Origin: a virus
Direction: 5' to 3' (one strand)
Length of the DNA: 43,389 nt
Virus record (IMG/VR): IMGVR_UViG_3300010370_000068
Location: 1 to 43,389 of that record
Below are positions 12,078 through 38,416 of this stretch, piece after piece. The number at the start of each line of letters is the position of its first letter. Position 1 is the stretch's first letter. The notes below the pieces were generated by a model. The model saw only the letters and a list, made by a program, of their open reading frames with translations, had not been told where the DNA came from and did not search any database. A program made the translations under genes and the position numbers.

Positions 12078-12078
12078 A

Positions 12079-12086
12079 CATAAATA
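12079..12086 (+). promoter_or_regulatory. Late promoter (CATAAATA) of the baseplate operon
   Basis: Fits NATAAATA and lies 21 bases before the ATG of gene 25, in the 30-base gap after the previous stop. In T4-like phages such elements are read by the gp55/gp33 late sigma system. Confidence 0.6.
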
Positions 12087-12107
12087 AAAAAAGAAATTTT
12101 ATGTCCA

Positions 12108-14434: not shown

Positions 14435-17400
14435 ATGATACAAACTGGTTTTGAGTCTAGGGTAAAAATTCAACAAATTGTTGATAATCAGCTTCCAGAG
14501 TTTATCTTAGATGAAAGTCCAAAAGCTGCTGAATTTTTAAAACAATATTACATTTCTCAAGAATATCAAGGTGGAACTATTGATATTGCTGAGAATTTAG
14601 ATCAATATTTAAAATTAGATAATTTAATTCCAGAAGTTATTGTTGGGTCAACAACACTTACAGATTCAGTTGGTTCTGATGATACGGATATTACTGTAAG
14701 TAATGTAAAAGGATTTCCAAAATCATATGGTCTATTAAAAATAGATAATGAAATTATTACCTATACTGGTATTAATGGTAACACATTTACTGGTTGTGTT
14801 CGTGGTTTTAGTGGTATTACAACATATAGTGCTGGTATTACAGAAAGTAAGACTGAGAATTATACCGGTGATCTTATCTTTAAAACATCTGAAGCAGAAT
14901 CACATACTTCTGATAGTGTTGTAATTAATTTAAGTTCCCTATTTTTAAAAGAATTTTATAAAAAAATTAAATATTCTTTAACCCCAGGTCTCGAAAATCT
15001 TGATTTTGTAAGTGATTTAAACGTTGGAAATTTTATAAAAGAATCAAGAACTTTATATGAATCAAAAGGAACTGAAGAATCCTTTAGAATTTTATTTAAT
15101 GTTCTATTTGGTGAAACTCCAAAGATAATTAATTTAGAAAATAATTTAATTAAACCCTCATCTGCAACTTACGTTAGAAGAGAAGTAGTAGTTGCTGATC
15201 GTATTTCTGGCGACCCACTTTTACTTGCAGGTCAAACTATCAAAAAAACAACTGATGACAAAACAAGTGCATCAGTTTCTGAAGTAGAAGTTATTCGTAG
15301 AGCTGGAAAAGTATATTACAAACTTTTATTATTTGTTGGTTATGATGACGCATTTCCAACTATCACCGGTTCTTTCAATATTACCAGTAGCACAAAGAAT
15401 ATAGAAGCAGTTAATATTGGCGATTCTATTATTACAGTTGATTCTACAATTGGGTTTCCTGCCTCTGGAAAGATTTATTCTGGGGATAATGAAATTACAT
15501 ATCAAGAAAAAACTATTAACCAATTTTTAGGTTGTTCTGGAGTAACTTCAAGGATTGAAACTGCATCAACTATCCGTTCAGATGAAACTTATTATGGTTA
15601 TGAAAACGGCGATACTTCTAAAAAAGTTGAATTAAGATTTACTGGAGTATTATCAAATTTTGCACCATTATCACAATCAGCATCAGTAGATGAAGGTGAA
15701 AAAATAAAGATTAGAAATTTGGGTGAGGTGATTGAAAACCCAATAGAAAATCCAACATATAAAGAAATTTTTGCTAATAGTTGGATTTATAATACAAGTT
15801 CAAGATATCAAATAGGTAGTTACTCTTCGGGAAATATATCTCAAGTAATTTTAAAGGATGACGTTGATAAGTCTAGTTTAAAAGTTGGTGATACAATTGA
15901 AATTTTAAATAGAAATTCTGAGGTTATAATTGCCTCTAACTTGGTCGTAACTCAAATTAATGGAAAACAAATTAATACTAATGGTTCTTTTGAACTTAGT
16001 CCATCATTCGACTATGATATAAGAAGAAAACTTAACTACGCATCAAGTTCTAATGTTTCTTTAGAATATGAATCTTTAACATCTGATATTCAAAATTTAT
16101 ATGTTGAAGATGATAAGTTTATGTATGTTGCATCAAACTCATTACCATCTTATGAGATAACTAAAAATATTTTTGGTTATCAAGCATCTTCTGTATCCGA
16201 AAAAAATCCAGATACTGATAATTATTCAGTCATTAATTTTACTGATAAGGTATCTTTTTATTCTGGATCAGCAGTTTATTATGTTCCATCAGATTCCCCA
16301 ATTCCAGGTCTTTTGGAAAGAGTATACTATGTTGATGTAATAAATGATAGGCGTCAGATTAGATTATACACTTCATTATCTTTAGTTGGTTCTAGTGATT
16401 ATATTGAATTCGGAAATCTTACTCCAGGAACTCATACCTTTATATTAAACAGTCAAAAAGAGAATATAATTTCTGCACAGAAAATTTTTAGAAAGTTTCC
16501 TCTTAATGTTAATATTGGTGATGGACAATCTGATTTAACACCTGTTGGATCAATTGGAATTTTAGTTAATGGTGTGGAGATTACTAGTTACAAAACAAAT
16601 GATAAGGTTTATTATGGACCATTAGATTCAGTTGATGTTCTTAATAGTGGTTCTGATTATGACGTTATTAATCCACCATTACTATCACTATCATCAGGAA
16701 GTGCTCTTTTACAACCAGTTGTTAGTGGAAAATTTAAGAAAATTTATGTTGATCCGCAAGATTTTGATGTTGATACAGTTGTTTCAGTTGCAGTTACGGG
16801 AGGTAACGGTAAAGGAGCATCTTTTGAACCAATTATTGAATTAAAAAGTAGAAGCATTGAATTTGATGCGAAACAAATTGCATATGGTGGAGGATTAGAT
16901 ATTAGTGCGGAGACCATCACATTCTTAAGACCTCATGGTTTAGTTAATGGTCAACAAATTATTTACAATCCAGGCAATAATGATTCTATTGGAATTGGAA
17001 CTTTTAACGGTCTTAATACGGATACTGGATCGACTTTAAAAACAGATACAATTTATTATGCAAAATATGTCAATGATACAACTATTCAGATTTATGAGAG
17101 ATTATCTGATTACAGATCGGGAATTAATACTGTGGGATTTACCACAATTGGTAATTCGGGAATTCATAAATTTTCAACAGATCTCAAAAAAACTTTAAAA
17201 GAAATTAAAATTATTGAACCAGGATCTGGATATGAAAATAGAAAATTAAGAGTTAACCCATCTGGTATATCTACCGTTAATAGTACAATTTCATTTACAA
17301 ATCATGGTTTTTCTGATGGAGAAATTATATCATACACATATCAAACAACTGGCATTTCTGGATTATCTACATCTAATCAATATTATATTTTAAAAGTTAA

Positions 17401-20400
17401 TGATGATACTTTTAGACTTGCAAATGCTGGAGTTGGTGGAACAGATCCATCATATTATCAAAGAGGAAAATTTGTAGAATTTTCAAATACAGGATCTGGA
17501 TATCAAATATTCAGTTACCCGCAAATATGCTTGAGTGTAAATTACACTAGCTCTAATCTTGAGAGTACTCAAACAAAAGGAACAATAAGTGCAACACCTG
17601 TTATTACTGGTAGTATTGTAGATGTTTATGTTTATGAAGGTGGTTCAAATTATGGATCTGAAATTTTAAATTTACATAAAAAACCCAAAATTACCATTAA
17701 AAATGGTAAAAATGCACAACTAAAACCAGTTGTTGTAAATGGAAGTATTTCTAATGTCAATATTCAATTTGGTGGTAGTGAATACTACTCTATGCCAAAT
17801 ATTAAAGTAATAGGTGAAGGGACAGGTGCTATAATTAAACCTATTGTTACAAACAACAGAATTTCGGATGTAGTAATTATAAATCCTGGAGTTGGTTATG
17901 TATCTTCAACCACTAGACTTGTTGTTGAGTCTGCAGGAAAAGGTGCGATTCTAAATCCGAATGTAAGATCTATAAATGTAAATAAAAATCTTTTATATGG
18001 TGAAGAGAATGATACTAGAGAAATTGCAAATGAAATATTAACGTCATCATATTATAACTTACAATATAGTGTTTGTGGTTACTCTGAAAATATTCAAAAT
18101 GAATTCGGAGATGATGGAACCCAGCATTCTAAAATTATTGGTTGGGCATATGATGGAAATCCAATTTATGGTTCTTATGGTTATTCTGATCCAAAAGATG
18201 ATAACTCTTCAATTAAAAGACTTTTATCTGGTTATTCATTAAATACGTCTAATATACAAAATAGACCTTCATCTTTTGATAATGGATTTTTTGTAGAAGA
18301 CTATGTATTTACTAACAGTGGAGATCTTGATGAATATAATGGTAGATTTTGTGTAACTCCTGAATTTCCAGATGGTGTATATGCCTACTTTGCAACATCT
18401 GAGGATAATTTATCTGGAAATCTTATAGGTCAGTTCCCATACTTTATTGGAGAAAGATTTAGATCTAAATTTATTTCAGAAAATTCATACTTAGATCAAA
18501 CTTTCGACTTTAACAATTCTAAACTTATTAGAAATACTTTACCATATAAAGTAAATGAAACTTATGCTGGAAATGACTTTATTATCGAGTCTAATGAAAT
18601 TATAAATCAAATTACTGTAGTAGATTCTATAACTTCTGGTTCTATTGAAAATTTTGATATTATAGACTCTGGTAATGATTATAAAGTTAATGACCTATTA
18701 AGATTTGATCAAAGTGCTGCTGGTGGTTTTGGTTTATCTGCACAAGTTTCTGAGATAACGGGAAAAGATGTAGTTGATATTAATTCGACGATAACTTCAT
18801 ATGACGATTCAATTTTTACTTGGGAAAATAATAATCAAGTAAAAGTTACTATATCTCCATATCACACTTTTAATAATTTAGATTATGTAACTATTTCAGG
18901 GTTTTCAACGTCATTAAGTGCTTTAAATGGTTTTACTCAGATTGGAGTAAGCACTGTTAGTTCAATTCTCTTTAAAGAAATACCAGCTTACTCAATTGCA
19001 GGTGTTGTAACTGATATTTACGTTTCTAGTATACCAGAAAATATCTCAATAGGAAGTAGCATTAAAATTGATAATGAAACCTTATCTGTAATTAATACTT
19101 ATAGAACTGATAATGTCCTAAGAGTTGTTAGAGAATCTACAGGTTCTGCCCATACTGCAACATCTATTGTCAATTTCTTACCAAATAGTTTTACGATTAA
19201 TAAACCAGTTTCATACTTTAATTCTAAAGTAAATGATATCTATTATTTCAACCCAAAACAATCTGTTGGTGTTGGTAGTACTTCTGGTATTGGTATTTCT
19301 ACAACTTATATTCTAGGAACTCGCAATATTCCAATTTCAATTCCAACACAAACAATCTTCCTTCCTGATCATAATTTTTCAACTAATCAGCAATTAATTC
19401 TTAGAAAATTACCATCTTCGTCTGCAATTTCTGTTGCAAATACTGGAGGTAGTTCTACATTCAATCTTCCTCTTTCTGGCGACTCTCAGATTGTTTATGC
19501 CATTAAAAAATCAAGAGATCATATTGGTATCGTAACACAAATTGGGTTGACAACCACCACAAATGGTTTGTTCTTCTTGACTAATGGATCTAATGATTAT
19601 CGTTATTCGATAGAGTCTAATTTTACTCAAATTAAAGGTGACATTACCAGCATTAAGTCAACAGTTTCTGTTTCCACTTCACACAATCTTTATGATGGTA
19701 ATGAAATTAATTTGACAGTAAAACCAAATTTATCAGTAGGAATTGGTACTAGTACTTCAATTAAGGTAAAATATGATTCTATTAGAGAAAAACTTATTAT
19801 CAATCCAATAGAATTTAGTTCTTCTGGTATTAATACAATTACTGATGAAATTTTAATAACAAATCATAAATTAAGAACTGGAGATAAAGTAATTTATTCT
19901 TCTGCAGGCACTGTTGCATCTGGACTAACGACTGGCATTTATTTTGTTTACAAAGTAGATAATAATATAATCAAATTATGTGAAACATTTGTAGACTCAA
20001 TATCCAATCCACCAATAGTCGTAGGTATTACTAGTGCTCCAGCATCAACTCATCAACTTGGACCTGTTAATCCGCCTTTAAATGTTATAAGAAATAATAA
20101 TTTAATATTTGATTTATCAGATACTTCTCTATCTGGTTACAATTTTAAATTATTTTATGATGATGAATTCAAAGATGAGTTTATTTCCACTGGATCTACT
20201 AATACATTTTCAGTATCTGGTGTTGGAACTGTAGGTGTGTCGTCAACTGCATCATTGACTTTAAACTATAGTGAAAATGTACCTCTCAATTTATTCTATA
20301 ATTTAGAAAAATCTGGTTACATTAGCACTGCTGATATAGAGGTTAATACTTATTGTAAAATATCATTTACAAATAGCGTCTATACTGGTTCATATCCAAT

Positions 20401-23400
20401 AAGTGGTGTTGGTACAACAACTTTCCAAATTTCTTTACCATACTTACCAGAAAATCTGAATTATACTTCAAGTGATTGCGATACTTTATTATATACTACT
20501 AATTCCTTATCAGCATCTGGTGGTATTAGTAAAATTAGAACGGTATCTTCTGGTGTTGGATTTAATAAGATTCCAGCATTTACAGGAACAAATTCTGAAA
20601 ATGGCGAAGGTGCGTATATAATTGCAAAATCTTCTACAATTGGTAATATTAATCAAACAAGAATTTTAAATGAAGGATTTGAATATCCTTCTGATAAAAC
20701 TCTAAGACCAACTGCTGACATACCAAAACTCTTAATTATTAAAGACGCTAATACTATTTCTGGAATAACAATAACAAACAATGGTAGAAACTACCTAAGT
20801 GTTCCAGATTTAATTATTACAAATTCGGAGACAGGTGAAAAAATTGATTCTGGACTACTAACTGCTAATTTGTTCGGTACAAGTGTAGGGTCAGTTAACA
20901 TTGTTAAAGAACCTAAGGGTCTTCCATCAGTACCAGTTAATATTGTATGTATTAATAATACTAATGGCGTTGGAATTAAAACAGTTACTACATCTTCATC
21001 TGGAATTGTTACTTGTTATCTTGTAACACCTTTAAGTGGATTTGGAACTGAACCATTTGCTGTTGGAGACAAGATATTTGTAGAAGGTATACAAAAGTAT
21101 AGTAATGATGGTGACGGATTTAATTCAGAAAATTATGGTTACAATTTCTTTACAGTTACTGCATATGAAAATGGAGGAACATTACTTACAAGAAAACTTG
21201 AATACAATCTATCAGGTTTTTCTACTAATGTAGGTGTTGCTAAAACTGAGCAAGAATCTTATGGTTTTATAATAAATTATGATAACTATCCAAGATTTGA
21301 AGTAACTCAAGAATATTCGCCATTTATAATTGGAGAATTTTTATCAGTCCAAAGTCAACTTGGTTTTGAATCTCAAGACTTGAGAGTAGTTGAAGATAAT
21401 GAAAACTACATCAAAGTTTTTGGTAACTATAAAATCAACACTAATGATATTATTCGTGGCGTTCAATCTGGAAATATTGCTAAAGTTGATGATGTTAAAG
21501 TAACAACTGGTTATTTTAACATTGGATATGGGTCAACACAAAGAATTGGTTGGTCTAATGATATTGGCAAACTAGATGAGGATACTCAAGTCATTGCAGA
21601 TAATGACTATTATCAAAATCTATCCTATTCAATAAAGAGTAAGCAAAGATGGGAGGATATTGTTACCCCAGTAAATAGCATTCTACACCCAAGTGGATTG
21701 AAAAATTTTGCAGACACTGTAATTACTGATAGTGTTGGAGTTGGTAATACTAATGTAAGTGATTCAATACAAATTCTTTATGATATTATAGATGAAAGAA
21801 GAGTAGACACAATCAATAATTTTGATTTGGCTATCGATGTGGATACAGTTGAAAATTCTTCTAGATATTTGAAATTTAAAAATAAAAAACTTGCAGACTA
21901 TATTGAATGTAGAACAAATAGAGTTCTTGCAATAGATGACATTAGTGAAGATTTTGCAAGTTCTGAAGTTACAACAAGTGGATTCTTAAGAATTTCAATT
22001 ATTAATCCATCATACAGGTACAATAGATATTTGGTTCAAATTACAAATAGTGATAACAGTCAAATTCAACTTACTGAAGTAATAGTTATCAATGATGATA
22101 ATAATGTATATACATTAGAAAAATCAAGTATCAGCAACTTGGAAGATCAGATTGGTGACATTGAAGGTTATATTGATGAAGATAATAGTTTGTATTTAAA
22201 GTTTACCCCATATGATGAATTTAATAATGATTATAAATTAAAAGTTCTTAATGACAAATTTGCATCTTTCTCTAGTGGTATAGGAACATATTCGGTTGGA
22301 TTTGTCGATCTAATAGGATCTAATGTAGCAATATCATCTAATACCACAAAAAGTTTGATTACTAAGAATGTAAACAAAATAGAGGCAATATACTCAAATA
22401 TTCATATTCTTAATCAATCTACCAATGAAATGAATTATGTTGAAATTTATTTGGATCACAATGGTACAGATACTAATATTACTGAACTGTACTTTGATTC
22501 AAATAGCGATTTAAGTTCTAACTTTATTGGTTCTTTTGGCGCATCTATTTCTGGAGGAGTTCTGACTTTAGATTATACAAATACTTCTGATATTGATATT
22601 ATTGTTAGAAGTAAAAATATTGGATTTAATACTACTGGAGCGGGTATTGGTACATATAGATTTAAGAAGACTGGTCAGGGAGATGGTTTTGAAAGAACAG
22701 TTAATTATGTTTCAAATTTCTCGAACGTTTCTTCAGCATCTACCGTTGTATCTTTAAGTATACCTGAATTTACTTCAGTTAAATCTATAGTAAGAGTTAG
22801 TATTGGTAATACAAGTTCATTACATCAAGTAATGATGATTAATGATGGAACAAATACTCATACAGTTCAATATCCAGCACTATCAATTGGTAGCACTTCT
22901 GGTATTGGTAGTTTTGGTGGAGTAATTTCTGGATCTAATGCTAACCTAATTTTCTACCCAGATCCTTCTATTTCTGGAACTTTTGAAGTCTTATCTTTCA
23001 ATGAAAAATTCTATACTGATATTGATTCAGTTAACCAACCATCAAGTTTAGAATATGCAAGCATTATTGAGTCTATTCAAGTTGGAAACTATTTTTCTGT
23101 CAATAGTGATAACTTAAGTAAAACAAACTTTAGTTTAACATATGATGGGTATCCAATTTTTATGAGGGAGTTTAATCCTTCAGATAGCAGTGTTTTAAAC
23201 TTATCTACTGGCGAATTTAACATTCCAAATCACTTCTTTAATACTGGCGAAAGATTGATTTATACTCCAAAATCAACTTTCTTAGGGGTTGGGCAAACTT
23301 CCGTTGGTATTGGATTAACTTTGACCTCTGCAGGTATTGTCACAAATCGTTTACCTGAAGAAGTATATGCTTATAAAATTAATGCTGATAAGTTTAAATT

Positions 23401-26332
23401 ATCTACAAGAAGAGACTATGCTCTTGCAGGTATATGTGTAACTTTCACTTCTGTTGGAGAGGGTAATGCTCATCAACTTGAAATGTATCATAAAAATGAT
23501 AAAACTATCATTTCAGTTGATAATGTTATTCAATATCCAATTGCATATTCACTAATTCAACATACTTTAAATAATTATTCTTCAATTGGTTATGCTTCTA
23601 CAATTTTTGCTTTGAGTGGTATTTCATCAATATCTGTAAAAGATTTATTAAAAATTGATAATGAATATATGAGAGTAAATAATGTCGGTTTTGGAACAAC
23701 AATTTCTGGACCAATATCATTTACTGGATCTGTACCATTGGTTGAAGTACAAAGAGGATTTGTTGGTTCATCAGCAACTTCTCATACTAACCTATCAACA
23801 ATAAATGTTTATAGAGGTTCATATAATATCGTTGGTGATCAAATTTTCTTCACTGAACCACCAGCAGGAAGTGTTGCGGATCAGATTGGAGCAGATGAGG
23901 ATAATCTTCCTGAAGCAAGATCTTCATTTAATGGAAGAGTTTTTCTAAGAAAAAATTATGATACTAATCAAATTTATGATAATATTTCTGAAAAATTCAC
24001 TGGTATCGATCAAAGTTATACACTTTCTTCAAATGGAATTAGTACAGTAGGTTTAGGAACTACTGGTGGAAGTGGTATAGTTTTAATTAATGGCATTTTC
24101 CAGACACCAACAACAGAGAATAATTTAAGTAACAACTATAGAATTGTAGAAAATGGAAGTGTTGGTGTAAGTAGTATAGTATTTTCCGGTATTACATCAT
24201 CAAATGGTTCAGTTATTATTTCACAAAATGATGTAAACTTAAATCAACTTCCAAGAGGTGGTCTGATTGTATCATTAGGTTCTACTTCTGGTTTAGGTTA
24301 TGCTCCCTTAGTTGGTGCCTCTGTAACGGCAATTGTTGGCGCAGGTGGATCTATTAGATCAATTGGTATTGGAACCACTGGAAATTGGGGTTCTGGATAT
24401 AGAAATCCAGTTTCAATTGCAATAACAGAATCTGGTCATACTGGATCTGCTGCAACTATTTCAGCTTTAGTTGGTGCTGGGGGAACATTATCTTTCACTA
24501 TTACTGGTGGGGGATCTGGGTATTCAAATCCAACTATTATTGTATCACCACCAAACTATGAAAATCTACCCATAACTGGAGTTTCAAGACTTGGTGTTGG
24601 TACAACAACAAGCACTGGTGTTGGTTTACTATTAAATGTTGAAGTTGGTACAAGTTCAACCGTTGGTGTAGGTTCTACCTTATTTGAAGTTACTAATTTT
24701 AAAATTACTAGATCTGGTTATGGATTTAAAAAAGGTGATGTTTTCAAACCAGTTGGTTTAGTAACTGCTTATGGATTATCAAGCCCAGTTTCAGAATTCC
24801 AACTCACAGTTTTAGATACTTTCTCAGATTCATTTGCTGCTTGGCAATTTGGTCAGATGGATTATATTGATACTGTTAAGAATTATCAAGATGGTTCTAG
24901 AACAAGATTCCCACTTTATTACAATGGTGATTTATTAAGTTTTGAAAGAAATGCTGATGATCCAGACTCCCAGTTAATTGATTTTGATGCTTTATTGATA
25001 GTTTTCATTAATGGCATTTTACAAGAACCAAAATTAGCATACCAATTTGAAGGTGGTACTTCATTTACATTCACTGAAGCACCAAAACCAGAAGATAATA
25101 TTTCAATTTTCTTCTATAAAGGTAGTTCTGAGGATACCGTCTTTGTAAATGTCAATGAAACTTTAAAAATTGGTGATGACGTTCAGGTTCTTAGTAATAA
25201 TAATTTACTTGACATTACTACAGAACAAAATTCAAGAATAATTTCAAATATTTCTTCTTCTGATAAAATTCAAACAGTTCTTTATAATTCGGTTGGAATT
25301 GATATAACAAACAGAAAACCAGCAAGTTGGACAAAACAAAAAATAGATAAAATTATTGATGGTAATTTTGTCTATAAGACAAGAGATTCTATTGAACCTC
25401 AAATATATCCAACTGCAAAAATTATTAAAAATTTCAATGCAGGTGATACTGAACTTTATGTTGACAATGCACAATTCTTCAATTATGAAAATGTTTCACC
25501 AGGTAGTATTAATTTTAATGCATTGATTGTTTCTGGCGCTGCAGATCCAATTTCAGCGAATATAACAGCAACTGTTTCTGCTGCAGGAACAATTCAATCA
25601 CTTACAATTAATAACCCAGGTAGTGGTTATGTAGGTTCTGCAGTTACAGTTAAAATCTCTGCACCACCAAAAGTTGGTGTTGGTATTGGAACTACCGCAA
25701 CAGCATCAGTATCTATCATAAATGGATCACTCTCAGTACCAACCATAATCAATCCTGGTTTTGGTTACACTGCGAATATTGTCCCACAGGTTATTGCACC
25801 TCTTCCAGATCCAACTTATGAAAATATTACTCAGGTAACAACAGTTCAAGGTTTCTCTGGAAAGATTACAGGAATTGCAACTGCTTCTGGAATTGGCACT
25901 AGTTTAGCAATCAAATTTACATTAGATCCAACATTATCTCCATTTACAAATCTTTCTGTTGGTCAACCAATTTATATCTTCAATACAAAGGTTGGTAAAG
26001 GTGTATCTTCTATACTCACTTCAGATAATGCAATTGTAGGAGTTGGTACTACTTTCCTTGATAATATTTACAATATTAGTGCATTTAACAGTTCTGTTGG
26101 AATAATTACTTGCAATGTCTTATCAACATCCTCCTTGGTTGGAATTGCAACTACTGGATCTTTTGTTGGACAATTTTCTTGGGGCAAATTATCTGGATTT
26201 ACCAGATCATCTTCTCCAGTATCAATAGCAGTTTCTGCATATCAAGTTGATGCTGGTTTGTCCACATTCCCAACAATTCAAAGAAGAGGATATGGATTCA
26301 GAGATAATGGTTCAATTAAAAAGGTCTTGTAA
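14435..26332 (+). CDS. Giant baseplate/fibre protein at the gene 7 position, 3965 aa
   Basis: An uninterrupted frame of 11.9 kb, by far the largest gene here. Residues 1-270 form a non-repetitive head (MIQTGFESRVKIQQIVDNQL, ESKGTEESFRILFNVLFGE) that I recall from cyanophage baseplate proteins; T4 gp7 occupies this place, so this may be its functional counterpart. The remainder is a mosaic of beta-rich modules: the GSGY-x(4)-P-V type (for example near residues 1100-1175, 3305-3375, 3715-3790), a HGF-x-x-GE type (near 830-890, 955-1000, 1805-1850, 2925-2990), IDNE/RG/H modules (near 105-135, 1545-1580, 3075-3120), a YHYH-like domain (about 1195-1350) and a T7-fibre-like segment (about 3470-3570). 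It is probably exposed on the virion and may bind host or trigger contraction. Confidence 0.75.
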   Translation: MIQTGFESRVKIQQIVDNQLPEFILDESPKAAEFLKQYYISQEYQGGTIDIAENLDQYLKLDNLIPEVIVGSTTLTDSVGSDDTDITVSNVKGFPKSYGLLKIDNEIITYTGINGNTFTGCVRGFSGITTYSAGITESKTENYTGDLIFKTSEAESHTSDSVVINLSSLFLKEFYKKIKYSLTPGLENLDFVSDLNVGNFIKESRTLYESKGTEESFRILFNVLFGETPKIINLENNLIKPSSATYVRREVVVADRISGDPLLLAGQTIKKTTDDKTSASVSEVEVIRRAGKVYYKLLLFVGYDDAFPTITGSFNITSSTKNIEAVNIGDSIITVDSTIGFPASGKIYSGDNEITYQEKTINQFLGCSGVTSRIETASTIRSDETYYGYENGDTSKKVELRFTGVLSNFAPLSQSASVDEGEKIKIRNLGEVIENPIENPTYKEIFANSWIYNTSSRYQIGSYSSGNISQVILKDDVDKSSLKVGDTIEILNRNSEVIIASNLVVTQINGKQINTNGSFELSPSFDYDIRRKLNYASSSNVSLEYESLTSDIQNLYVEDDKFMYVASNSLPSYEITKNIFGYQASSVSEKNPDTDNYSVINFTDKVSFYSGSAVYYVPSDSPIPGLLERVYYVDVINDRRQIRLYTSLSLVGSSDYIEFGNLTPGTHTFILNSQKENIISAQKIFRKFPLNVNIGDGQSDLTPVGSIGILVNGVEITSYKTNDKVYYGPLDSVDVLNSGSDYDVINPPLLSLSSGSALLQPVVSGKFKKIYVDPQDFDVDTVVSVAVTGGNGKGASFEPIIELKSRSIEFDAKQIAYGGGLDISAETITFLRPHGLVNGQQIIYNPGNNDSIGIGTFNGLNTDTGSTLKTDTIYYAKYVNDTTIQIYERLSDYRSGINTVGFTTIGNSGIHKFSTDLKKTLKEIKIIEPGSGYENRKLRVNPSGISTVNSTISFTNHGFSDGEIISYTYQTTGISGLSTSNQYYILKVNDDTFRLANAGVGGTDPSYYQRGKFVEFSNTGSGYQIFSYPQICLSVNYTSSNLESTQTKGTISATPVITGSIVDVYVYEGGSNYGSEILNLHKKPKITIKNGKNAQLKPVVVNGSISNVNIQFGGSEYYSMPNIKVIGEGTGAIIKPIVTNNRISDVVIINPGVGYVSSTTRLVVESAGKGAILNPNVRSINVNKNLLYGEENDTREIANEILTSSYYNLQYSVCGYSENIQNEFGDDGTQHSKIIGWAYDGNPIYGSYGYSDPKDDNSSIKRLLSGYSLNTSNIQNRPSSFDNGFFVEDYVFTNSGDLDEYNGRFCVTPEFPDGVYAYFATSEDNLSGNLIGQFPYFIGERFRSKFISENSYLDQTFDFNNSKLIRNTLPYKVNETYAGNDFIIESNEIINQITVVDSITSGSIENFDIIDSGNDYKVNDLLRFDQSAAGGFGLSAQVSEITGKDVVDINSTITSYDDSIFTWENNNQVKVTISPYHTFNNLDYVTISGFSTSLSALNGFTQIGVSTVSSILFKEIPAYSIAGVVTDIYVSSIPENISIGSSIKIDNETLSVINTYRTDNVLRVVRESTGSAHTATSIVNFLPNSFTINKPVSYFNSKVNDIYYFNPKQSVGVGSTSGIGISTTYILGTRNIPISIPTQTIFLPDHNFSTNQQLILRKLPSSSAISVANTGGSSTFNLPLSGDSQIVYAIKKSRDHIGIVTQIGLTTTTNGLFFLTNGSNDYRYSIESNFTQIKGDITSIKSTVSVSTSHNLYDGNEINLTVKPNLSVGIGTSTSIKVKYDSIREKLIINPIEFSSSGINTITDEILITNHKLRTGDKVIYSSAGTVASGLTTGIYFVYKVDNNIIKLCETFVDSISNPPIVVGITSAPASTHQLGPVNPPLNVIRNNNLIFDLSDTSLSGYNFKLFYDDEFKDEFISTGSTNTFSVSGVGTVGVSSTASLTLNYSENVPLNLFYNLEKSGYISTADIEVNTYCKISFTNSVYTGSYPISGVGTTTFQISLPYLPENLNYTSSDCDTLLYTTNSLSASGGISKIRTVSSGVGFNKIPAFTGTNSENGEGAYIIAKSSTIGNINQTRILNEGFEYPSDKTLRPTADIPKLLIIKDANTISGITITNNGRNYLSVPDLIITNSETGEKIDSGLLTANLFGTSVGSVNIVKEPKGLPSVPVNIVCINNTNGVGIKTVTTSSSGIVTCYLVTPLSGFGTEPFAVGDKIFVEGIQKYSNDGDGFNSENYGYNFFTVTAYENGGTLLTRKLEYNLSGFSTNVGVAKTEQESYGFIINYDNYPRFEVTQEYSPFIIGEFLSVQSQLGFESQDLRVVEDNENYIKVFGNYKINTNDIIRGVQSGNIAKVDDVKVTTGYFNIGYGSTQRIGWSNDIGKLDEDTQVIADNDYYQNLSYSIKSKQRWEDIVTPVNSILHPSGLKNFADTVITDSVGVGNTNVSDSIQILYDIIDERRVDTINNFDLAIDVDTVENSSRYLKFKNKKLADYIECRTNRVLAIDDISEDFASSEVTTSGFLRISIINPSYRYNRYLVQITNSDNSQIQLTEVIVINDDNNVYTLEKSSISNLEDQIGDIEGYIDEDNSLYLKFTPYDEFNNDYKLKVLNDKFASFSSGIGTYSVGFVDLIGSNVAISSNTTKSLITKNVNKIEAIYSNIHILNQSTNEMNYVEIYLDHNGTDTNITELYFDSNSDLSSNFIGSFGASISGGVLTLDYTNTSDIDIIVRSKNIGFNTTGAGIGTYRFKKTGQGDGFERTVNYVSNFSNVSSASTVVSLSIPEFTSVKSIVRVSIGNTSSLHQVMMINDGTNTHTVQYPALSIGSTSGIGSFGGVISGSNANLIFYPDPSISGTFEVLSFNEKFYTDIDSVNQPSSLEYASIIESIQVGNYFSVNSDNLSKTNFSLTYDGYPIFMREFNPSDSSVLNLSTGEFNIPNHFFNTGERLIYTPKSTFLGVGQTSVGIGLTLTSAGIVTNRLPEEVYAYKINADKFKLSTRRDYALAGICVTFTSVGEGNAHQLEMYHKNDKTIISVDNVIQYPIAYSLIQHTLNNYSSIGYASTIFALSGISSISVKDLLKIDNEYMRVNNVGFGTTISGPISFTGSVPLVEVQRGFVGSSATSHTNLSTINVYRGSYNIVGDQIFFTEPPAGSVADQIGADEDNLPEARSSFNGRVFLRKNYDTNQIYDNISEKFTGIDQSYTLSSNGISTVGLGTTGGSGIVLINGIFQTPTTENNLSNNYRIVENGSVGVSSIVFSGITSSNGSVIISQNDVNLNQLPRGGLIVSLGSTSGLGYAPLVGASVTAIVGAGGSIRSIGIGTTGNWGSGYRNPVSIAITESGHTGSAATISALVGAGGTLSFTITGGGSGYSNPTIIVSPPNYENLPITGVSRLGVGTTTSTGVGLLLNVEVGTSSTVGVGSTLFEVTNFKITRSGYGFKKGDVFKPVGLVTAYGLSSPVSEFQLTVLDTFSDSFAAWQFGQMDYIDTVKNYQDGSRTRFPLYYNGDLLSFERNADDPDSQLIDFDALLIVFINGILQEPKLAYQFEGGTSFTFTEAPKPEDNISIFFYKGSSEDTVFVNVNETLKIGDDVQVLSNNNLLDITTEQNSRIISNISSSDKIQTVLYNSVGIDITNRKPASWTKQKIDKIIDGNFVYKTRDSIEPQIYPTAKIIKNFNAGDTELYVDNAQFFNYENVSPGSINFNALIVSGAADPISANITATVSAAGTIQSLTINNPGSGYVGSAVTVKISAPPKVGVGIGTTATASVSIINGSLSVPTIINPGFGYTANIVPQVIAPLPDPTYENITQVTTVQGFSGKITGIATASGIGTSLAIKFTLDPTLSPFTNLSVGQPIYIFNTKVGKGVSSILTSDNAIVGVGTTFLDNIYNISAFNSSVGIITCNVLSTSSLVGIATTGSFVGQFSWGKLSGFTRSSSPVSIAVSAYQVDAGLSTFPTIQRRGYGFRDNGSIKKVL

Positions 26333-26338
26333 TATTAA

Positions 26339-26346
26339 TATAAATA
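26339..26346 (+). promoter_or_regulatory. Late promoter (TATAAATA)
   Basis: Perfect T4-type late octamer in the 33-base gap before gene 8, 19 bases from its ATG. It allows gene 8 and the following genes to be transcribed independently of the 12-kb gene upstream. Confidence 0.7.
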
Positions 26347-26365
26347 TAGAAAAAACTATATTCAA

Positions 26366-27925
26366 ATGCCTGCACTTGTAACAGATCAATTTAGAATTCT
26401 AAATGCATCTAATTTTATAGATTCTGTTCAGGATTCTTCAAATTCATATTATGTTTTTGTCGGTCTTTCAAATCCAACTCAAACTGGATTTGGTAGAGAC
26501 ATCAATTGGGATAGTAACACACCAAATCCAACTGATAATATAGATTATTTAAATCATTATGAAACGACCGCTCTTTTTGGCAAAAAAATTACAAGTGCAA
26601 ATATCAAGAGGGTAATTCGAAGAATTGATTGGACGCGTGGTACAAAATATGAAATGTATAGACCAGATTATAGTGTGGTAAATCCATCACCAGTTACTGG
26701 TGCTATGAGATTATATGATGCCAACTATTATGTTCTGAATTCTGATTATAAAGTTTATATTTGTATTTCTAACGGTTCTTCTGGAATTAATACAACTGGT
26801 AATGCTTCACAAGATGAACCAACTTTTACAGACTTAGAACCATCTCCAGCAGGTGAAAGCGGAGATGGTTATCTTTGGAAGTATCTGTACACAGTTTCTC
26901 CAAGTGATATTATTAAATTTGATTCTATTGAGTATATCACTGTACCTAACGACTGGGATACATCTACAGATGCTCAAATAACGGCTGTAAGAGAAAGTGG
27001 CGATTCTACAATAAATGATAATCAAATTAAGAAAGTTTATATTCAAAATAGGGGATTAGGTTATACACTATCTTCTGGTCAATCTTGTAACATTATTGGG
27101 GATGGCACAGGTGCAACAGTCGTTGTTGATGTGGATTCTTCAGGTAGAATTGCAGATACAACTGTTACTTCTGGTGGAAAAAATTATACATATGGTTTAG
27201 TTGATTTAGGAACGACTGCAAATCCTGGCGAATATGCAGAATTAATTCCAATTATACCACCATCAAAAGGACACGGTTTTGATATCTATAAAGAATTAGG
27301 TGCAGATAAAGTTTTAATTTATGCAAGATTTGATGATTCGACAAAAGATTTTCCAATTGATTCAAAGTTTGCACAGGTTGGAATACTAAAAAATCCAAAG
27401 GTATTTGATTCAACAGGAGTTAGTACATCAAGTTTTACATCAACAGAGTTTTCTGGTGTCTATGCATTGAGACTTAGTGGAACACCATCTGGTTCAATCT
27501 CAGTTGGAGATAAAATTCAACAAACAGTTACCGATGGAATTGCAGTTGGATATGTCGCTTCGTATGATGAAGAAACAAAAGTTTTAAAATATTTTAAAGA
27601 TAGATCTTTATATTTCAATCCTACAACATATGACCAAATTGATTATATCGGAATAACTACTACAGGAAAAGTACTAGATTTTGAATCAACTAATCAAATT
27701 ACTAAAGTTGGTGGTGGATTTAATGCCTCTGTAGATAGTTCATTCTCTGGTATTACAACAACGATTTCAAATAAAATTGTAAATCTAGGAATAGAATTTA
27801 CTAATGGACTTGCAAATCCAGAGATAAATAATAAGACGGGTGACATAATTTATATTGATAATAGACCCACGGTAACAAGAAGTACTAGACAAAAAGAAGA
27901 CGTTAAAATTATCCTGGAATTTTAA
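26366..27925 (+). CDS. 8: Baseplate wedge subunit gp8
   Basis: 519 residues against 334 in T4. The conserved parts are visible: the SNIKRVIRRIDWTRG-type loop (about 75-90), GESGDGYLWKYLYTVSP (about 165-182) and YITVPNDW (about 191-198), and the C-terminus NKTGDIIYIDNRPTVTRS followed by DVKIILEF, which aligns with the T4 end. The extra length includes a GLGY/GTGA beta module at about 225-270. gp8 dimers sit between gp6 and gp7 in the wedge. Confidence 0.88.
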   Translation: MPALVTDQFRILNASNFIDSVQDSSNSYYVFVGLSNPTQTGFGRDINWDSNTPNPTDNIDYLNHYETTALFGKKITSANIKRVIRRIDWTRGTKYEMYRPDYSVVNPSPVTGAMRLYDANYYVLNSDYKVYICISNGSSGINTTGNASQDEPTFTDLEPSPAGESGDGYLWKYLYTVSPSDIIKFDSIEYITVPNDWDTSTDAQITAVRESGDSTINDNQIKKVYIQNRGLGYTLSSGQSCNIIGDGTGATVVVDVDSSGRIADTTVTSGGKNYTYGLVDLGTTANPGEYAELIPIIPPSKGHGFDIYKELGADKVLIYARFDDSTKDFPIDSKFAQVGILKNPKVFDSTGVSTSSFTSTEFSGVYALRLSGTPSGSISVGDKIQQTVTDGIAVGYVASYDEETKVLKYFKDRSLYFNPTTYDQIDYIGITTTGKVLDFESTNQITKVGGGFNASVDSSFSGITTTISNKIVNLGIEFTNGLANPEINNKTGDIIYIDNRPTVTRSTRQKEDVKIILEF

Positions 27926-27928
27926 AAA

Positions 27929-30900: not shown

Positions 30901-33900
30901 AGAAAGATTTGGAGATGATATTCCAACTATTGGCGGAAGAACTGTAAGAGCGTCAGATACTTTAGATTTTAGACCAAGAGTTCCTGTATTTTCAGGTACA
31001 TCTTCTTCTCCATTTGACTTTACCTCTAGATCATTCGGTTCAGAACCAAAACTAATTCTTTCACCAAATGAAAGCGCATTAATTGGTTACGATTTCTACC
31101 TAGGTAGAATTGATAAACTATGTTTAGATAAACTAGGTAATTTTATTGTTATTGAAGGAGTACCCTCAACAGATCCAGTAGAACCATTGAAGCAAGATGA
31201 AGTGATGCAGATGGCTGTGATTAATCTGCCACCATATCTTTATAGTCCAAGTGATGCAACTATTACACTTACAGATAATAGAAGATATACAATGCGCGAT
31301 ATTGGTCGTATTGAAGATAGAGTTGAAACTCTTGAAACAGTCACATCGCTTTCTCTTTTAGAACTTAATGTTCAAACTTTACAAATTCAAGATGCTCAAG
31401 GTTTTAATAGATTTAGAACAGGATTTTTTGTAGATGATTTTGCAAATACAAGTTTAATTAATCTTGATGATTCAACAATCGAAGTAGATACTGCAAATGG
31501 TGAATTAATACCTCAAATTAATAGAAATAGTATTAGTCTATTACCAGTTTCTGCAGATTTAACTACAGATGAAAATTTAGATCTAAGTACAAATTTTGCT
31601 TTATATGACTCTAATGTTCAAAAAACAAACGACGTAATTACATTAAGATATGAATCTGTTGGATGGATTGAGCAACCAATTGCAACTAAAGTAGAAAATG
31701 TAAACCCATTTCACGTTGTTTCATATGTTGGAGAGATTACACTTGATCCATCTAGCGATAGTTGGGTAAGAACGATACAACTTGAAGATGTAAACGTTAA
31801 TATAAGATTAAGAAACAGACGTGTTCGCCCAAATCAAGTTGCAAGAGGATTTTTTAGAGTAGATGGTAGAAGAGTAAGAAGAAGAGAAGTAACAGAAGTT
31901 GCTAGTGATGTTACTAACGTAGTTGCTACTGGTGCTGAAGTTTACATGAGATCACGCAACACTGGTTTTGATGCAGTAAGCTTAAAACCTTTGACTAGAT
32001 TTTATCAGTTTTTGGATAGTAATAGTGGAGTTGATTTTATTCCAAAACTTATTGAAATTTCACCTAATAGAACTTTAACAAACTATGGAGCATCAAAAGC
32101 GTTTACCGTAGGTGAAACTGTAGTTGGTAGTTACAATGGTCAAGATTTAATTGCATTTAGAGTTGCTACCCCAAATCACAAAGAAGGTAGATTTAATAGT
32201 CCTAGTAAAACATATAGTGTCAATCCTTATATTAGAGGTGAAAGTATTCCGGGTCAATATAGTGCTTCATCAAAAGTTCTTAATGTAGATATTAGAGCAC
32301 TATGCGCTGAAGCACAAGGTTTGTATTCTGGTTACTTAGTTGTTGGAATGAGATTAGTTGGTGAAACTAGTGGTGCTGTTGCATATGTAAAAGATCTGAG
32401 ACTTATAAGTGATAATTTTGGTGATTTGCAAGGATCATTTTTCTTAAGAGAACCAAATACAACACCCCCACCACCAGTAAGACTTGCAACTGGATCTAAA
32501 GTATATAAATTATCTTCAAGTGAAACAAATGAAACTCCACTTCCAGGAAGTAGACTTATTTCTTCTGCGGAAACAATTTATAGATCGGAAGGAACTTGGG
32601 AACAAAGGCAAAGAATAACAACTACAACTACCCAACTTTTTATTCGTAAAGATCCTCTAGCACAATCGTTTAGTGTTGGTGCAAGTAGTGAAGATGTTAA
32701 TGGAAACTCTCCAAATGAAGATGCAAATGGAGCATTTTTAACTGCTGTTGACATTTATATGGCACGCAAAGATGAAGAAACTCCATTAACTGTACAAGTA
32801 AGAACAGTTGAATTAGGTACACCAACATTGACGGTTCTTGGAGATCCAGTTACTTTAAGACCAAACGAAATTCAAATTTCTAATGATGCATCTTTACCAA
32901 CCAGAGTAACATTCCCATATCCAATTTATCTTGCACCAGGAGCTGAATATTGTATTGTTCTTTTGGCACCACAGACTATTCAATATGAAGCTTGGATTGC
33001 AGAAATGGGAGAAAATGCAGTTAACGCTAGATCTCTTCCAGATTCTCAAAATGTAAGGTATACAAGGCAATTCGCTCTTGGCAGCCTCTTCAAATCTCAA
33101 AATGGTTCTATTTGGACAGCAAATCAATATCAAGATTTGAAATTTAAACTTTATAAAGCTAATTTCACATCAAACAGTGGAAGTGTCTTGTTCCAAAATC
33201 CAACACTAAATCAGAGTAATGGTTATGTACCCAACCTATCCTCAAATCCAATTACAACATTACCTAAGAGATTTTCGATTGGTATAAGCACAGTAACCAA
33301 CAATGCAGTAATTGGCATTTTAACCACTGGTAGAAAAATTGGTGATGCTTCAAAACCAAGTAATTATGGTTATATTGTTGGAACAGGAAGTTCAGTAGCA
33401 AGTGTAGGAATTACTACAGGCGGTTCAAATTATACAACAACATCAAATGTTGGTACATATGCAATTACTGGTGGAGGAACTGGGTTAAGACTTAATATTA
33501 CCGCAGCTAGTGGTAGTGGCAACATTACTGCAGCAACGATTGCTAGTGTTGGAAACGGTTATGCTGTAGGTGATATTGTCGGTATTAAAACTTCAGATGT
33601 TTCTCCTGCTGCAGGTCGTAATGCACGAATTACAATTAGTAGTATTACAGGTCTAGACACCTTGTATATTAGCAATGCCCAAGCGGAGTCATTTACCACT
33701 GTTGGTATTTCAACTTTAGTTTATTATAATTCTTCTGATACAGCAGTTTCTCTTGCAGGTACATCAATTAGAACATCAACTCCAGTAGGTGGAATTTACG
33801 CAGGAAACTTTATGAAAGTAATTCATTCCGATCACGGAATGTATGCTGCTAATAATAAACTCACCCTTTATAATGTAGGATCTAACATTGTTCCAACAAC

Positions 33901-35164: not shown

Positions 35165-35364
35165 TGATACCAGTTAAAGGACACCCAAATTTATACCGCG
35201 ATGAAGAATCTGGTGCTATTGTAAATTGTGATAATAATGCTTATAATCAATATCTAAACACTTTGCATAATAGAGATTATCAGAAAAATGAAATACAACA
35301 AATGAAAAAGGATATTGATGAGATTAAATCATTGCTTAAGGGGTTATTAAATGGAACACAATGA
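35161..35364 (+). CDS. Small coiled-coil protein, 67 aa
   Basis: MMIPVKGHPNLYRDEESGAI, then a coiled-coil C-terminus (QKNEIQQMKKDIDEIKSLLK). Starts in the stop overlap with the giant gene (ATGATGA; a second ATG at 35164 is equally good). The N-terminal VKGHPNLYRDEESGAIVN pattern is, as I recall, conserved among cyanophages and annotated only as a structural or hypothetical protein. Overlaps the next gene by 14 bases. Confidence 0.7.
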   Translation: MMIPVKGHPNLYRDEESGAIVNCDNNAYNQYLNTLHNRDYQKNEIQQMKKDIDEIKSLLKGLLNGTQ

Positions 35365-35527
35365 TATTCAATTGGAAACAATTGACAAAATGTTTGAGTT
35401 TGAAAAACATTCTCGCGTCATAGATGAGTTAAGTTTTGAAGAACTTAAAAATTTTTCTAAAATGTATTGTAAATTGTACCTTAAACAACAAGAAGTTTTG
35501 AGTTCCCTTGGCAATCTTGAGATATAA
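35351..35527 (+). CDS. Small helical cyanophage protein, 58 aa
   Basis: MEHNDIQLETIDKMFEFEKH, SRVIDELSFEELKNFSKMYC, then KLYLKQQEVLSSLGNLEI. Entirely helical, amphipathic and acidic-basic mixed. The pattern TIDKMFEFEKxSRVIDEL and EELKNFSKxYCKLY recurs in cyanophages by memory. Its last codons overlap the late promoter of the next gene. Confidence 0.65.
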   Translation: MEHNDIQLETIDKMFEFEKHSRVIDELSFEELKNFSKMYCKLYLKQQEVLSSLGNLEI

Positions 35528-35530
35528 ATA
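35523..35530 (+). promoter_or_regulatory. Late promoter (TATAAATA)
   Basis: Perfect late octamer that includes the TAA stop of the gene at 35351. The next ATG (35553) is 22 bases downstream. Likely drives genes 13-17 and their neighbours. Confidence 0.7.
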
Positions 35531-35552
35531 AGAAGTAGAGCTTAAAAAATAG

Positions 35553-35897
35553 ATGGCAGCAGTATATGTAAATAACCTAGTTGTGAATGCTGGCAGTGAT
35601 TTTAATCAGACTTTCACATTAGAAGGTGCAAATACAAATTCTGCTTTGAATTTAACTAATTATACTATTACTGCTCAAATGAGAAAGTGGGCAGGAAGTT
35701 CTTCTGCGACAAGTTTTACTACTAGAGTAATAACACCTAGTACAAGTGGAAAAATTGAATTATCTTTGACTTCTGAAGAAACTTCAAATTTAAAACCTGG
35801 AAGATACATTTATGATATTCTAATCGAAGATACTACTGGTTCTAAAACTAGAGTTGTTGAGGGAATGGTTCTCGTAAGAGAGGGAGTTACCCGATAA
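35553..35897 (+). CDS. Small virion structural protein, 114 aa
   Basis: MAAVYVNNLVVNAGSDFNQT, FTLEGANTNSALNLTNYTIT, AQMRKWAGSSSATSFTTRVI, and the end GRYIYDILIEDTTGSKTRVV with EGMVLVREGVTR. The alternating beta pattern with GRYxYDI-x-I-x-D is that of N-terminal immunoglobulin-like baseplate adaptors (BppU-like) and I recall it from cyanophages as a structural protein. It overlaps the next gene by one base. Confidence 0.7.
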   Translation: MAAVYVNNLVVNAGSDFNQTFTLEGANTNSALNLTNYTITAQMRKWAGSSSATSFTTRVITPSTSGKIELSLTSEETSNLKPGRYIYDILIEDTTGSKTRVVEGMVLVREGVTR

Positions 35898-36181
35898 TGT
35901 CAGATATTAAGGTTAGAGTTGGTCAACAAAATTCTATCAAAGTTATATCTAGTATAGCAGGTGAACGTGCCTTTAATGATGCTGTAAATGTAATAGGCGG
36001 TATTGCTTCTGTTACACAATTAAATGTAAGCGGAATATCTACATTTGTTGGAATTGCTACGTTTAAAAATGATCTTTTTGTTGATGGAAATTTAACTGTT
36101 GTAGGTATTGCATCTTTTAAAAATGATGTTTTTATTAATGGTGATTTAACTGCTAGTGTCATAGACGGAGGAACGTACTGA
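35897..36181 (+). CDS. Small virion protein with beta repeats, 94 aa
   Basis: After MSDIKVRVGQQNSIKVISSI, two copies of a repeat (STFVGIATFKNDLFVDGNLT and ASFKNDVFINGDLT) suggest a triple beta-spiral or needle-like trimer. The stop precedes gene 13 by one base. Similar FKNDLFVDGNLT repeats are common in cyanophage tail fibres. Likely a small fibre or whisker-like component; the exact role is unknown. Confidence 0.65.
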   Translation: MSDIKVRVGQQNSIKVISSIAGERAFNDAVNVIGGIASVTQLNVSGISTFVGIATFKNDLFVDGNLTVVGIASFKNDVFINGDLTASVIDGGTY

Positions 36182-36182
36182 A

Positions 36183-37025
36183 ATGTCAAAACCCGCAAGT
36201 AGACAACAACTAATTGATTACTGCTTAAGGCGTCTAGGTGCCCCCGTATTAGAAATTAATATTGATGATGACCAAATTGATGATTTAGTAGATGACGCTC
36301 TTCAGTACTTTCACGAGCGTCATTTTGATGGTGTTGAGAGAATGTACTTAAAGTATAAGATTACCGAAGAAGATTTAAATAGAGGTAGAGCAAATCCAAC
36401 AAGTGGTGTAGGAATCGTTACAACTACAGGAACCGCATCAATTAGTGGAATTGGATCTACATCTTTCAATTTTTACGAGAATTCAAACTTTATTCAAGTT
36501 CCAGATAGTGTTATAGGAATAGAAAAAGTTTTTAAATTTGATACCAGTTCAATTTCTGCTGGTATGTGGAGTATTAAATATCAGTTATTTCTAAATGACT
36601 TATATTATTTTAATTCAGTAGAACTTTTACAGTATGCAATGGTAAAAACTTACCTTGAAGATATTGACTATTTACTTTCTACAGATAAACAAATTAGATT
36701 TAACAAGAGACAAAATAGGTTATATTTAGATATTGACTGGGAAGCGAAAGCAAAAGACAATTTTATTGTAATAGATTGTTATAGAATTTTAGATCCAAAT
36801 GATTTTACCAAAGTATATAATGACAGTTTCTTAAAAAGATATTTAACTGCTTTAATGAAGCGTCAATGGGGTCAAAATTTAATTAAGTTTAGAGGAGTTA
36901 AATTACCTGGTGGCATTGAATTAAATGGAAGAGAAATATATGAAGATGCTGAAAGAGAAATAGAAAATATAAGACAAAGAATGTCTATGGATTATGAACT
37001 TCCTCCTTACGATTTTATTGGATAA
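36183..37025 (+). CDS. 13: Neck protein gp13
   Basis: 280 residues (T4 gp13 309). The beginning MSKPASRQQLIDYCLRRLGA and EINIDDDQIDDLVDDALQYF with HERHFDGVERMYLKYKIT is the family signature, and the end is RQRMSMDYELPPYDFIG. gp13 with gp14 caps the portal after packaging and connects the head to the tail. The position right before genes 14, 15 and 16 is conserved. Confidence 0.92.
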   Translation: MSKPASRQQLIDYCLRRLGAPVLEINIDDDQIDDLVDDALQYFHERHFDGVERMYLKYKITEEDLNRGRANPTSGVGIVTTTGTASISGIGSTSFNFYENSNFIQVPDSVIGIEKVFKFDTSSISAGMWSIKYQLFLNDLYYFNSVELLQYAMVKTYLEDIDYLLSTDKQIRFNKRQNRLYLDIDWEAKAKDNFIVIDCYRILDPNDFTKVYNDSFLKRYLTALMKRQWGQNLIKFRGVKLPGGIELNGREIYEDAEREIENIRQRMSMDYELPPYDFIG

Positions 37026-37027
37026 TA

Positions 37028-38416
37028 ATGGCTCTTAATCCCTTTTTCTTACAAGGTTCTCCAGGAGAACAAAGACTTATACAAGATCTAATTAATGAGC
37101 AGTTGAAAATATATGGCGTAGATGTTATCTACATTCCAAGAAAATTTGTAAGAAAGCAAACTATTATCAAAGAAATCCAATCATCAAAATTTGATGATAA
37201 TTTTGCTATAGAAGCATATGTGAATACTTTTGATGGTTATAGTGGTCAAGGTGATATCTTGTCAAAATTTGGAATGACTTTAAAAGATGAGTTAAGTTTA
37301 ATCATCTCAAAAGAAAGATTTGAAGATTTTATTTCTCCATTTTTAGAACCAGTAGATGATGAAATAGTTCTTTCATCAAGACCAAGAGAAGGAGATTTAG
37401 TATATTTTCCTCTTGGTCAAAGATTATTTGAAGTTAAATTTGTTGAGCACGAAGTTAATTTTTATCAACTAGGGAAATTATATGTTTATGAATTAAAATG
37501 TGAACTATTTGAATATGAAGATGAAGTTATCGATACTTCTGTTGAAGAAATTGATACTCAAATTGAAGATCAGGGATATATTACAACTTTACAATTAATT
37601 GGCACAGGTTCAACAGCAACAGCAACAGCATTGATTAATACTGGTTATATTAGAGAAATATATCTAAACAATGATGGTTATGATTATATAACAACACCAA
37701 CTGTTTCAATTTCAACTGCACCTTCTGGAGGAACTAACGCTACAGCAGTTGCTATAACGACAAACAGAGCTGGTGTATATTCAATTGAATCAATTATATT
37801 AACAAATGCTGGTGCAGGTTATACGACTATTCCATCAATTGCAATAAGTGGTGGAGGTGGAACTGGAGCTGCCGCAACTTGTAAGATTGAAACTTCTGAA
37901 AACGGCATCTCTCGTTTTAATATAACTGGCATTGGAAGTGGGTATGTTAGTTCACCAACGGTTAATATTATTGGGTCAGTTGGAACTGGACAAACTGCAG
38001 TTGGACTTGCTGTAGTAGGTGCTGGTCAAACCATTTCTTCTATCAGAATTTTAAATCCAGGCATCGGTTATACTTTAGCACCTACAGTAACTATTGCTGC
38101 ACCACCTGTTCTGTCAGGAATTGGCACATATCAATTTAATGAAGAAGTATTTGGTTCTCGTTCTGGAACTAGAGGGCGTGTTAAGTCTTGGGATTACGAT
38201 ACTAAAGTTCTTAAGGTTGCTTTAGTTGATAATGCAGCAACAAAAGGTTTTTATGGTGGAGAACTTATTGTTGGTGCAGCATCTAGTGCCATATATGCAC
38301 TCAAATCTTTTGATACTTGGGATCAATATGATAAATATAGTGAAAATATAGAAATTGAAAATGCAGCTGACGGCATTATAGATTTCTCAGAGTCCAATCC
38401 ATTTGGTACATTTTAA
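37028..38416 (+). CDS. 14: Neck protein gp14 with inserted beta-repeat domain
   Basis: The N-terminal half (MALNPFFLQGSPGEQRLIQD, DVIYIPRKFVRKQTIIKEIQ, LVYFPLGQRLFEVKFVEHEV) and the C-terminal end (DTWDQYDKYSENIEIENAAD) are gp14. T4 gp14 has 256 residues, this has 462. The excess at about residues 185-370 holds four GxGY-x-x-x-P-x-V-x-I repeats (around 210, 255, 300 and 345). The insert is of the same kind as the modules of the giant protein and may decorate the neck. gp14 joins the portal to the tail terminator. Confidence 0.9.
   Translation: MALNPFFLQGSPGEQRLIQDLINEQLKIYGVDVIYIPRKFVRKQTIIKEIQSSKFDDNFAIEAYVNTFDGYSGQGDILSKFGMTLKDELSLIISKERFEDFISPFLEPVDDEIVLSSRPREGDLVYFPLGQRLFEVKFVEHEVNFYQLGKLYVYELKCELFEYEDEVIDTSVEEIDTQIEDQGYITTLQLIGTGSTATATALINTGYIREIYLNNDGYDYITTPTVSISTAPSGGTNATAVAITTNRAGVYSIESIILTNAGAGYTTIPSIAISGGGGTGAAATCKIETSENGISRFNITGIGSGYVSSPTVNIIGSVGTGQTAVGLAVVGAGQTISSIRILNPGIGYTLAPTVTIAAPPVLSGIGTYQFNEEVFGSRSGTRGRVKSWDYDTKVLKVALVDNAATKGFYGGELIVGAASSAIYALKSFDTWDQYDKYSENIEIENAADGIIDFSESNPFGTF

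Follow-up and report, generated by a model that had tools for sequence, protein, structure and literature searches.

The closest described counterparts of the repeats considered here are domain I of the T4 tail sheath protein gp18 (PDB 3foa, 3j2m) and domain D3* of Dpo31, the tailspike of Cobetia phage Carin1 (PDB 28lx, 8ck1). Domain I of gp18 is a protruding insertion which takes no part in sheath subunit contacts; its binding partners are the baseplate and the long tail fibers in their retracted state, and the gp18 mutations G106S, S175F, and A178V block fiber retraction (PMC3004832). Dpo31 is an exopolysaccharide depolymerase from whose β-helix D3* protrudes as an Ig-like domain which is soluble and monomeric on its own; its authors report a distant DALI similarity of D3* to sugar-binding domains, with scores of only 2.8 to 2.9, and assign the depolymerase activity to D3 (PMC13317679). 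Ig-like additions to phage proteins are already known, and those of Fraser et al. (2006), as that work is cited in PMC9230969, resemble the present repeats in being Ig-like, in being added to structural proteins, and in occurring across unrelated phages. The present case differs in that the proposed knob is made of two half-domain repeats and that the repeat matches no Pfam or NCBIfam family; what is new here is this half-domain repeat outside both collections.

The window, that is, the whole stretch of DNA that was analyzed, is an IMG/VR fragment of 43,389 bases from a T4-like cyanophage; among the records found, that of Synechococcus phage S-SRM01 was the nearest (76% over 21% of the 24 kb used as query). 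Four of its proteins bear a β-strand repeat of approximately 40 residues: a 3,965-aa gp7-like baseplate protein, gp8, a 2,411-aa DUF4815 protein, and gp14. Window gp8 and gp14 match the Pfam families Phage-Gp8 (3.7e-14) and T4_neck-protein (3.9e-29), respectively, and outside the repeats both chains are homologous to those of T4. The recurrence of the repeat in several tail and neck proteins, as proposed in the initial annotation, is real; the motif by which it was described there, GxGYxxxPxVxI, occurs in that exact form only twice in the window, both times in gp14, and a DNA-level search with the literal motif likewise returned only these two sites. The conservation actually present reads A.A.V..G.I..I.I.N.G.GY...P.V.I, with variation. 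In searches of Pfam and NCBIfam, Ig-like families included, the repeat region came near no family's curated cutoff, and a description of the repeat was not found in a literature search, most subscription papers lying outside its scope. The repeat-bearing features of the window are as follows.

16616..16705, + strand: gp7-like repeat copy, aa 728-757 (HMM 11.4 bits); nearest copy, the same-position copy of S-SRM01, identity 0.76
17189..17269, + strand: gp7-like repeat copy, aa 919-945 (HMM 12.0 bits); too short for identity comparison
17588..17932, + strand: gp7-like three-repeat array, aa 1052-1166 (E 0.0024, 4.9e-16, and 1.6e-13)
18614..18712, + strand: degenerate gp7-like copy, aa 1394-1426, after the YHYH domain (11.4 bits; E 0.0028)
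20495..20839, + strand: two to three degenerate gp7-like copies, aa 2021-2135 (copy at aa 2100, 11.0 bits; E 1.4e-4)
24314..24559, + strand: two gp7-like copies, aa 3295-3375 (E 0.0015 and 1.1e-11)
25556..25795, + strand: two gp7-like copies, aa 3708-3787 (E 9e-13 and 6.1e-4)
26981..27220, + strand: gp8 two-copy insert, aa 206-285 (hhalign E 2e-6)
33371..33583, + strand: two degenerate copies in the 2,411-aa DUF4815 protein, aa 1815-1885 (alone not significant)
37616..37738, + strand: gp14 repeat 1 (E 1.2e-14; AF2 pLDDT >90)
37739..37870, + strand: gp14 repeat 2 (E 2e-11; AF2 pLDDT >90)
37871..37996, + strand: gp14 repeat 3 (E 8.5e-14; AF2 pLDDT >90)
37997..38125, + strand: gp14 repeat 4 (E 5e-12; AF2 pLDDT >90)
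37577..38317, + strand: gp14 aa 184-430, a probable small β-barrel (aa 184-191 plus about 367-430) hosting the four repeats, as judged from match ranges

In a genome-scale profile scan with a match threshold of E ≤ 0.01, nine matches were obtained in the 3,965-aa protein (at 17591, 17711, 17825, 18626, 20744, 24314, 24449, 25556, and 25694), two in gp8 (27005 and 27110), and four in gp14 (37613, 37736, 37871, and 37994), while the 2,411-aa protein gave no match at this threshold. At every place named in the initial annotation a repeat is present, degenerate in some cases; the copies near 16616-16705 and 18614-18712 had been missed. The gp8 insert is located at the point where, in an alignment to T4 gp8, detectable homology is interrupted. 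Between the repeat arrays of the gp7-like protein lies a YHYH domain (PF14240, E 1e-27; 18113-18412), and a 94-aa frame at 35897-36181 contains the fiber-like near-repeats FKNDLFVDGNLTVVGIASFKNDVFINGDLT.

The similarity between these proteins was assessed using leave-one-class-out HMMs, each trained without the protein class under test and scored against locally shuffled sequences. Held-out window gp14 reached 60.6 bits against 9.2 for the best shuffled domain, the gp7-like protein 24.7 bits (best copy 15.2 against 9.2 for the best shuffled domain), and gp8 15.5 bits against a shuffled maximum of 4.0, while the copy of the 2,411-aa protein, at 3.1 bits against a null maximum of 4.6, was within noise when taken alone. 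A profile built solely from the four gp14 copies scored the 3,965-aa protein at 19.1 bits and gp8 at 14.5 bits, above all shuffled controls, and an independent profile derived only from phage Syn9 gave 78 bits for gp14 (null maximum, 11.5) and 50 bits for the 3,965-aa protein (null maximum, 9.3). Orthologues of the 2,411-aa protein in S-T4 and S-SRM01 were matched in whole-genome scans (E 7e-4 and 2e-3, respectively), and when hhalign was applied to the pooled orthologues, the repeat site was the top-ranked one among 39 segments (E 1e-4, with the next unrelated segment at 0.06). These comparisons argue strongly for a repeat module common to gp14, gp8, and the gp7-like protein; the 2,411-aa protein is linked to it through its orthologues. 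The proposal that one profile would connect the copies of all four proteins better than random sequence stands for gp14, the gp7 class, and gp8, which exceed their shuffles; the 2,411-aa copy does not do so alone, but its site ranks above all other segments when the orthologues are pooled.

The T4 counterparts have no detectable copy of the repeat, in agreement with the initial annotation: T4 gp7, gp8, gp10, and gp14 scored at noise, and the same profile scan (E ≤ 0.01) yielded no match in the whole T4 genome. The repeat was present in every cyanophage genome checked, and a scan of cyanophages with one profile, as the initial annotation had suggested, found 10 to 24 copies in each of seven of them. 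The further cyanophage copies are located in gp5-like baseplate hub/tail lysozyme proteins, in tail fibers of approximately 1,900 aa, and in baseplate/fiber proteins of approximately 620 to 930 aa; the repeat module is not confined to the tail cluster of the window. Outside the cyanophages, copies were found in the related Pelagibacter phage HTVC008M (three), Caulobacter phage Cr30 (three), and Agrobacterium phage Atu_ph07 (seven), and in Cobetia phage Carin1 (two). Both HTVC008M and Cr30 carry the repeat in gp7 and gp8, and the profile scan found none in Cr30 gp14. The sequence GGSGYAVGDALSV in HTVC008M gp7 (9436-12486) stands midway between the form found in cyanophages and that seen in T4 gp18. 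Scanning bacterial genomes with the gp14 insert yielded no more than three loci, and the three genomes picked in this way also have the repeat: two are Singulisphaera and Opitutales assemblies, with copies in giant open frames (those on the Singulisphaera contigs C128 and C367 being 4,737 to 6,533 aa in length), and the third is a bin assigned to Euryarchaeota. The gp14-like insert on the contig of this bin has 46% identity, and the contig may be viral, possibly a misbinned cyanophage.

Where a window copy could be compared (two were left out as too short), its nearest relative is in most cases the copy that occupies the same position in a related phage, at an identity of 0.45 to 0.80, while the best identity between copies inside the window is 0.54. 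Nucleotide matches between copies, a comparison also put forward in the initial annotation, extend to about 30 bp at most. Because same-position copies are mostly the nearest and the nucleotide matches are short, the spread of the repeat between genes appears to be old, and the data favor an ancient spread followed by inheritance in place with some change in copy number, gp14 having four copies in the window and two in Syn9. Inheritance in place is not demonstrated for every copy, as the gp7-like copies at aa 3295, 3708, and 3755 are most similar to a gp7 copy located elsewhere in the gp7 of a different phage. The module exchange within the tail cluster that was originally suggested is retained for the distant past only; neither the identities nor the nucleotide matches support gene conversion or exchange among the copies in recent times.

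Since AF2 modeled the T4-like N-terminal part of full-length gp14 poorly (pLDDT under 50), the insert (aa 190-368) was also folded alone, giving an all-β model with three strands per repeat (pLDDT 92.5, pTM 0.83); the insert is modeled with equal confidence within the full chain. Foldseek against the PDB returned nothing below E 0.001 for the insert or the full gp14 model. Among the structures to which the full model was aligned, the F1-ATPase and aIF2-gamma barrels span residues 184 to 419/430 with only 56 to 79 residues aligned, and these aligned ranges suggest a small barrel as the place of insertion of the repeats, with one knob nested in another. Against predicted viral structures (BFVD), stretches of 86 to 88 residues, corresponding to two repeats, superpose at 1.6 to 2.3 Å, while whole-insert alignments mostly lie at 14 to 28 Å, with one exception of 138 columns at 3.7 Å; tight two-repeat stretches combined with a poor whole-insert fit are consistent with flexibly joined two-repeat units. 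There are two copies in gp8 and four in gp14; among the runs of the gp7-like protein are odd and degenerate ones. A second recurrent motif, SG..A.V...LKV...GE.I.G, is common to the gp14 barrel (38126-38317), the 2,411-aa protein (aa 100-153, 855-891, and 1373-1412; 14.0 bits, with no shuffled baseline), and gp8 (aa 389-411; 4.9 bits, which is at noise level).

Structural realignment of the insert placed T4 gp18 domain I first (model residues 20 to 100), the next entry having a Z score of 3.4; the fold is matched over 75 residues at 3.0 Å with a Z score of 6.3, a range (Z < 8) in which likeness without kinship is common. Domain I is, like the proposed gp14 knobs, an exposed insertion nested in another domain, and its segment GSNYAVGDKITV resembles the turn and third strand of the repeat, as do, more generally, TISTPGSNYAVGDKITVKY and GKIKKINIPTGKNYA within aa 99-157 of gp18 (T4 NC_000866). 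It differs in having an extra helix and in its location on the sheath rather than in gp7, gp8, or gp14. G106, S175, and A178 all fit the T4 sequence when the initiator Met is not counted; in this numbering, the Gly of PGSNY, at the position matching the conserved Gly of the repeat, is G106. When gp18 was scored using the profile syn.hmm, 3 to 4 of 2,000 shuffles reached its score; two other profiles gave nothing clear, and hhalign scores with nine orthologues besides T4 fell inside the null range. Sequence kinship between the repeat and gp18 domain I is, at this level, borderline and is regarded as a lead.

In a profile search of PDB sequences, the Dpo31 tailspike ranked first (E 5e-4); a single Syn9 array used in the same database gave no match. 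The two Dpo31 copies (aa 438-465 and 480-509) both lie inside D3* (aa 434-536) and score 16.7 bits against 10.0 for 1,000 shuffles, such that one protruding Ig-like insertion holds two repeat copies. Dpo31 is, unlike the proteins of the window, a podovirus depolymerase, from a marine phage, with one knob only; the second strand set of D3* is partly different, the likeness derives from sequence, and D3* chains were absent among the fold matches listed for the gp14 models.

It is, on balance, probable that the repeat constitutes half of an exposed Ig-like β-sandwich knob, and that such knobs, inserted in tail, baseplate, and neck proteins and spread in ancient times, act as accessory contact surfaces. 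Each copy of approximately 40 residues would supply three strands (A.A.V, G.I..I.I.N., and P.V.I) connected through a G.GY turn, and one knob, inserted in a loop of a conserved tail, baseplate, or neck protein, would consist of two copies. The four gp14 repeats would probably form two knobs, one nested in the other, set in the small barrel that lies downstream of the T4-like region; there would be one knob in gp8 and many in the gp7-like protein. The passage of the knobs between genes probably took place well before the divergence of the sampled cyanophages, after which they were mostly inherited in place. The surface decoration surmised in the initial annotation gains support from protruding relatives or look-alikes, namely Dpo31 D3* and T4 gp18 domain I; for the window itself, we infer the two repeats per knob in gp14, the nesting, the exposure on the virion, and any binding. 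As protruding structures, the knobs would most likely provide a weak grip on host glycans or a docking surface for the phage's own fibers or neighboring subunits, two uses which we consider about equally plausible.

Glycan contact is, by analogy, a possible use, by which each knob would touch sugars weakly at the cyanobacterial surface and many copies would sum to slow, reversible adhesion. It accords with the presence of the two-copy D3* in an exopolysaccharide depolymerase, with its distant DALI likeness to sugar-binding domains (PMC13317679), with the view, discussed in PMC9230969, that Ig-like domains added to phage sheath proteins bind carbohydrates weakly, and with the occurrence of repeat copies in tail fibers. 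The DALI scores of D3* are low, however, and the depolymerase activity is attributed to D3; the neck, where gp14 is located in T4, lies a long way from the host surface when the phage first makes contact. Moreover, Gly, Pro, or Tyr occupies 28 of the 41 gp14-insert positions with a conservation of at least 95%, a pattern more indicative of a conserved fold than of a conserved ligand site, and no conserved polar surface patch marking a common ligand site was found in the insert.

Docking inside the virion, equally to be entertained as a tentative reading, would give the knobs the role of sites where tail or neck fibers and neighboring subunits attach or rest, as gp18 domain I does for the retracted long tail fibers. 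The fold match to that domain, its binding of the baseplate and retracted fibers, the retraction-blocking mutations (PMC3004832), and the correspondence of G106 to the conserved Gly of the repeat all favor such a role, although kinship with gp18 is unproven at the sequence level, and the module, being present both in the tailspike of a podovirus and in giant proteins of bacteria, is not tied to contractile tails. It is rather unlikely that the repeat is a neutral spacer, i.e., a stable, easily inserted β module which lengthens proteins without binding. The very large size of the host proteins, the changes in copy number, and the faster divergence of the gp14 insert (mean identity, 0.58, versus 0.81 for the T4-like part) would suit a spacer; against it, the insert is kept, with its folding residues conserved, across widely diverged cyanophage gp14s (237 records covering at least 80% of gp14). 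That unrelated Gly/Ser-rich β segments are merely alike in composition is highly improbable, for despite the rarity of the literal motif and the noise-level score of the 2,411-aa copy alone, same-composition local shuffles never match the held-out scores of gp14, gp8, and the gp7-like protein, the null maxima of the Syn9 profile also fall below the gp14 and gp7-like scores, and the T4 genome yields no candidate; for these three proteins, a compositional artifact is contradicted by the shuffle controls.

With regard to the preferred reading of exposed two-repeat knobs as accessory contact surfaces, a broader and more doubtful extension is that one ancestral half-domain repeat lies behind exposed knobs over much of the tail in the T4 superfamily, namely those on cyanophage gp7, gp8, gp14, hub, and fibers and domain I of the sheath protein gp18 in T4, as well as behind that on a podovirus tailspike, all of which would then represent a common virion surface-fiber-host contact system unnamed in Pfam and NCBIfam. 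The repeat profile would allow long stretches of large cyanophage structural proteins, currently designated "hypothetical," to be annotated, and the links to Dpo31 D3* and gp18 domain I make the function of the inserts a question that can be tested with existing structures and mutants.
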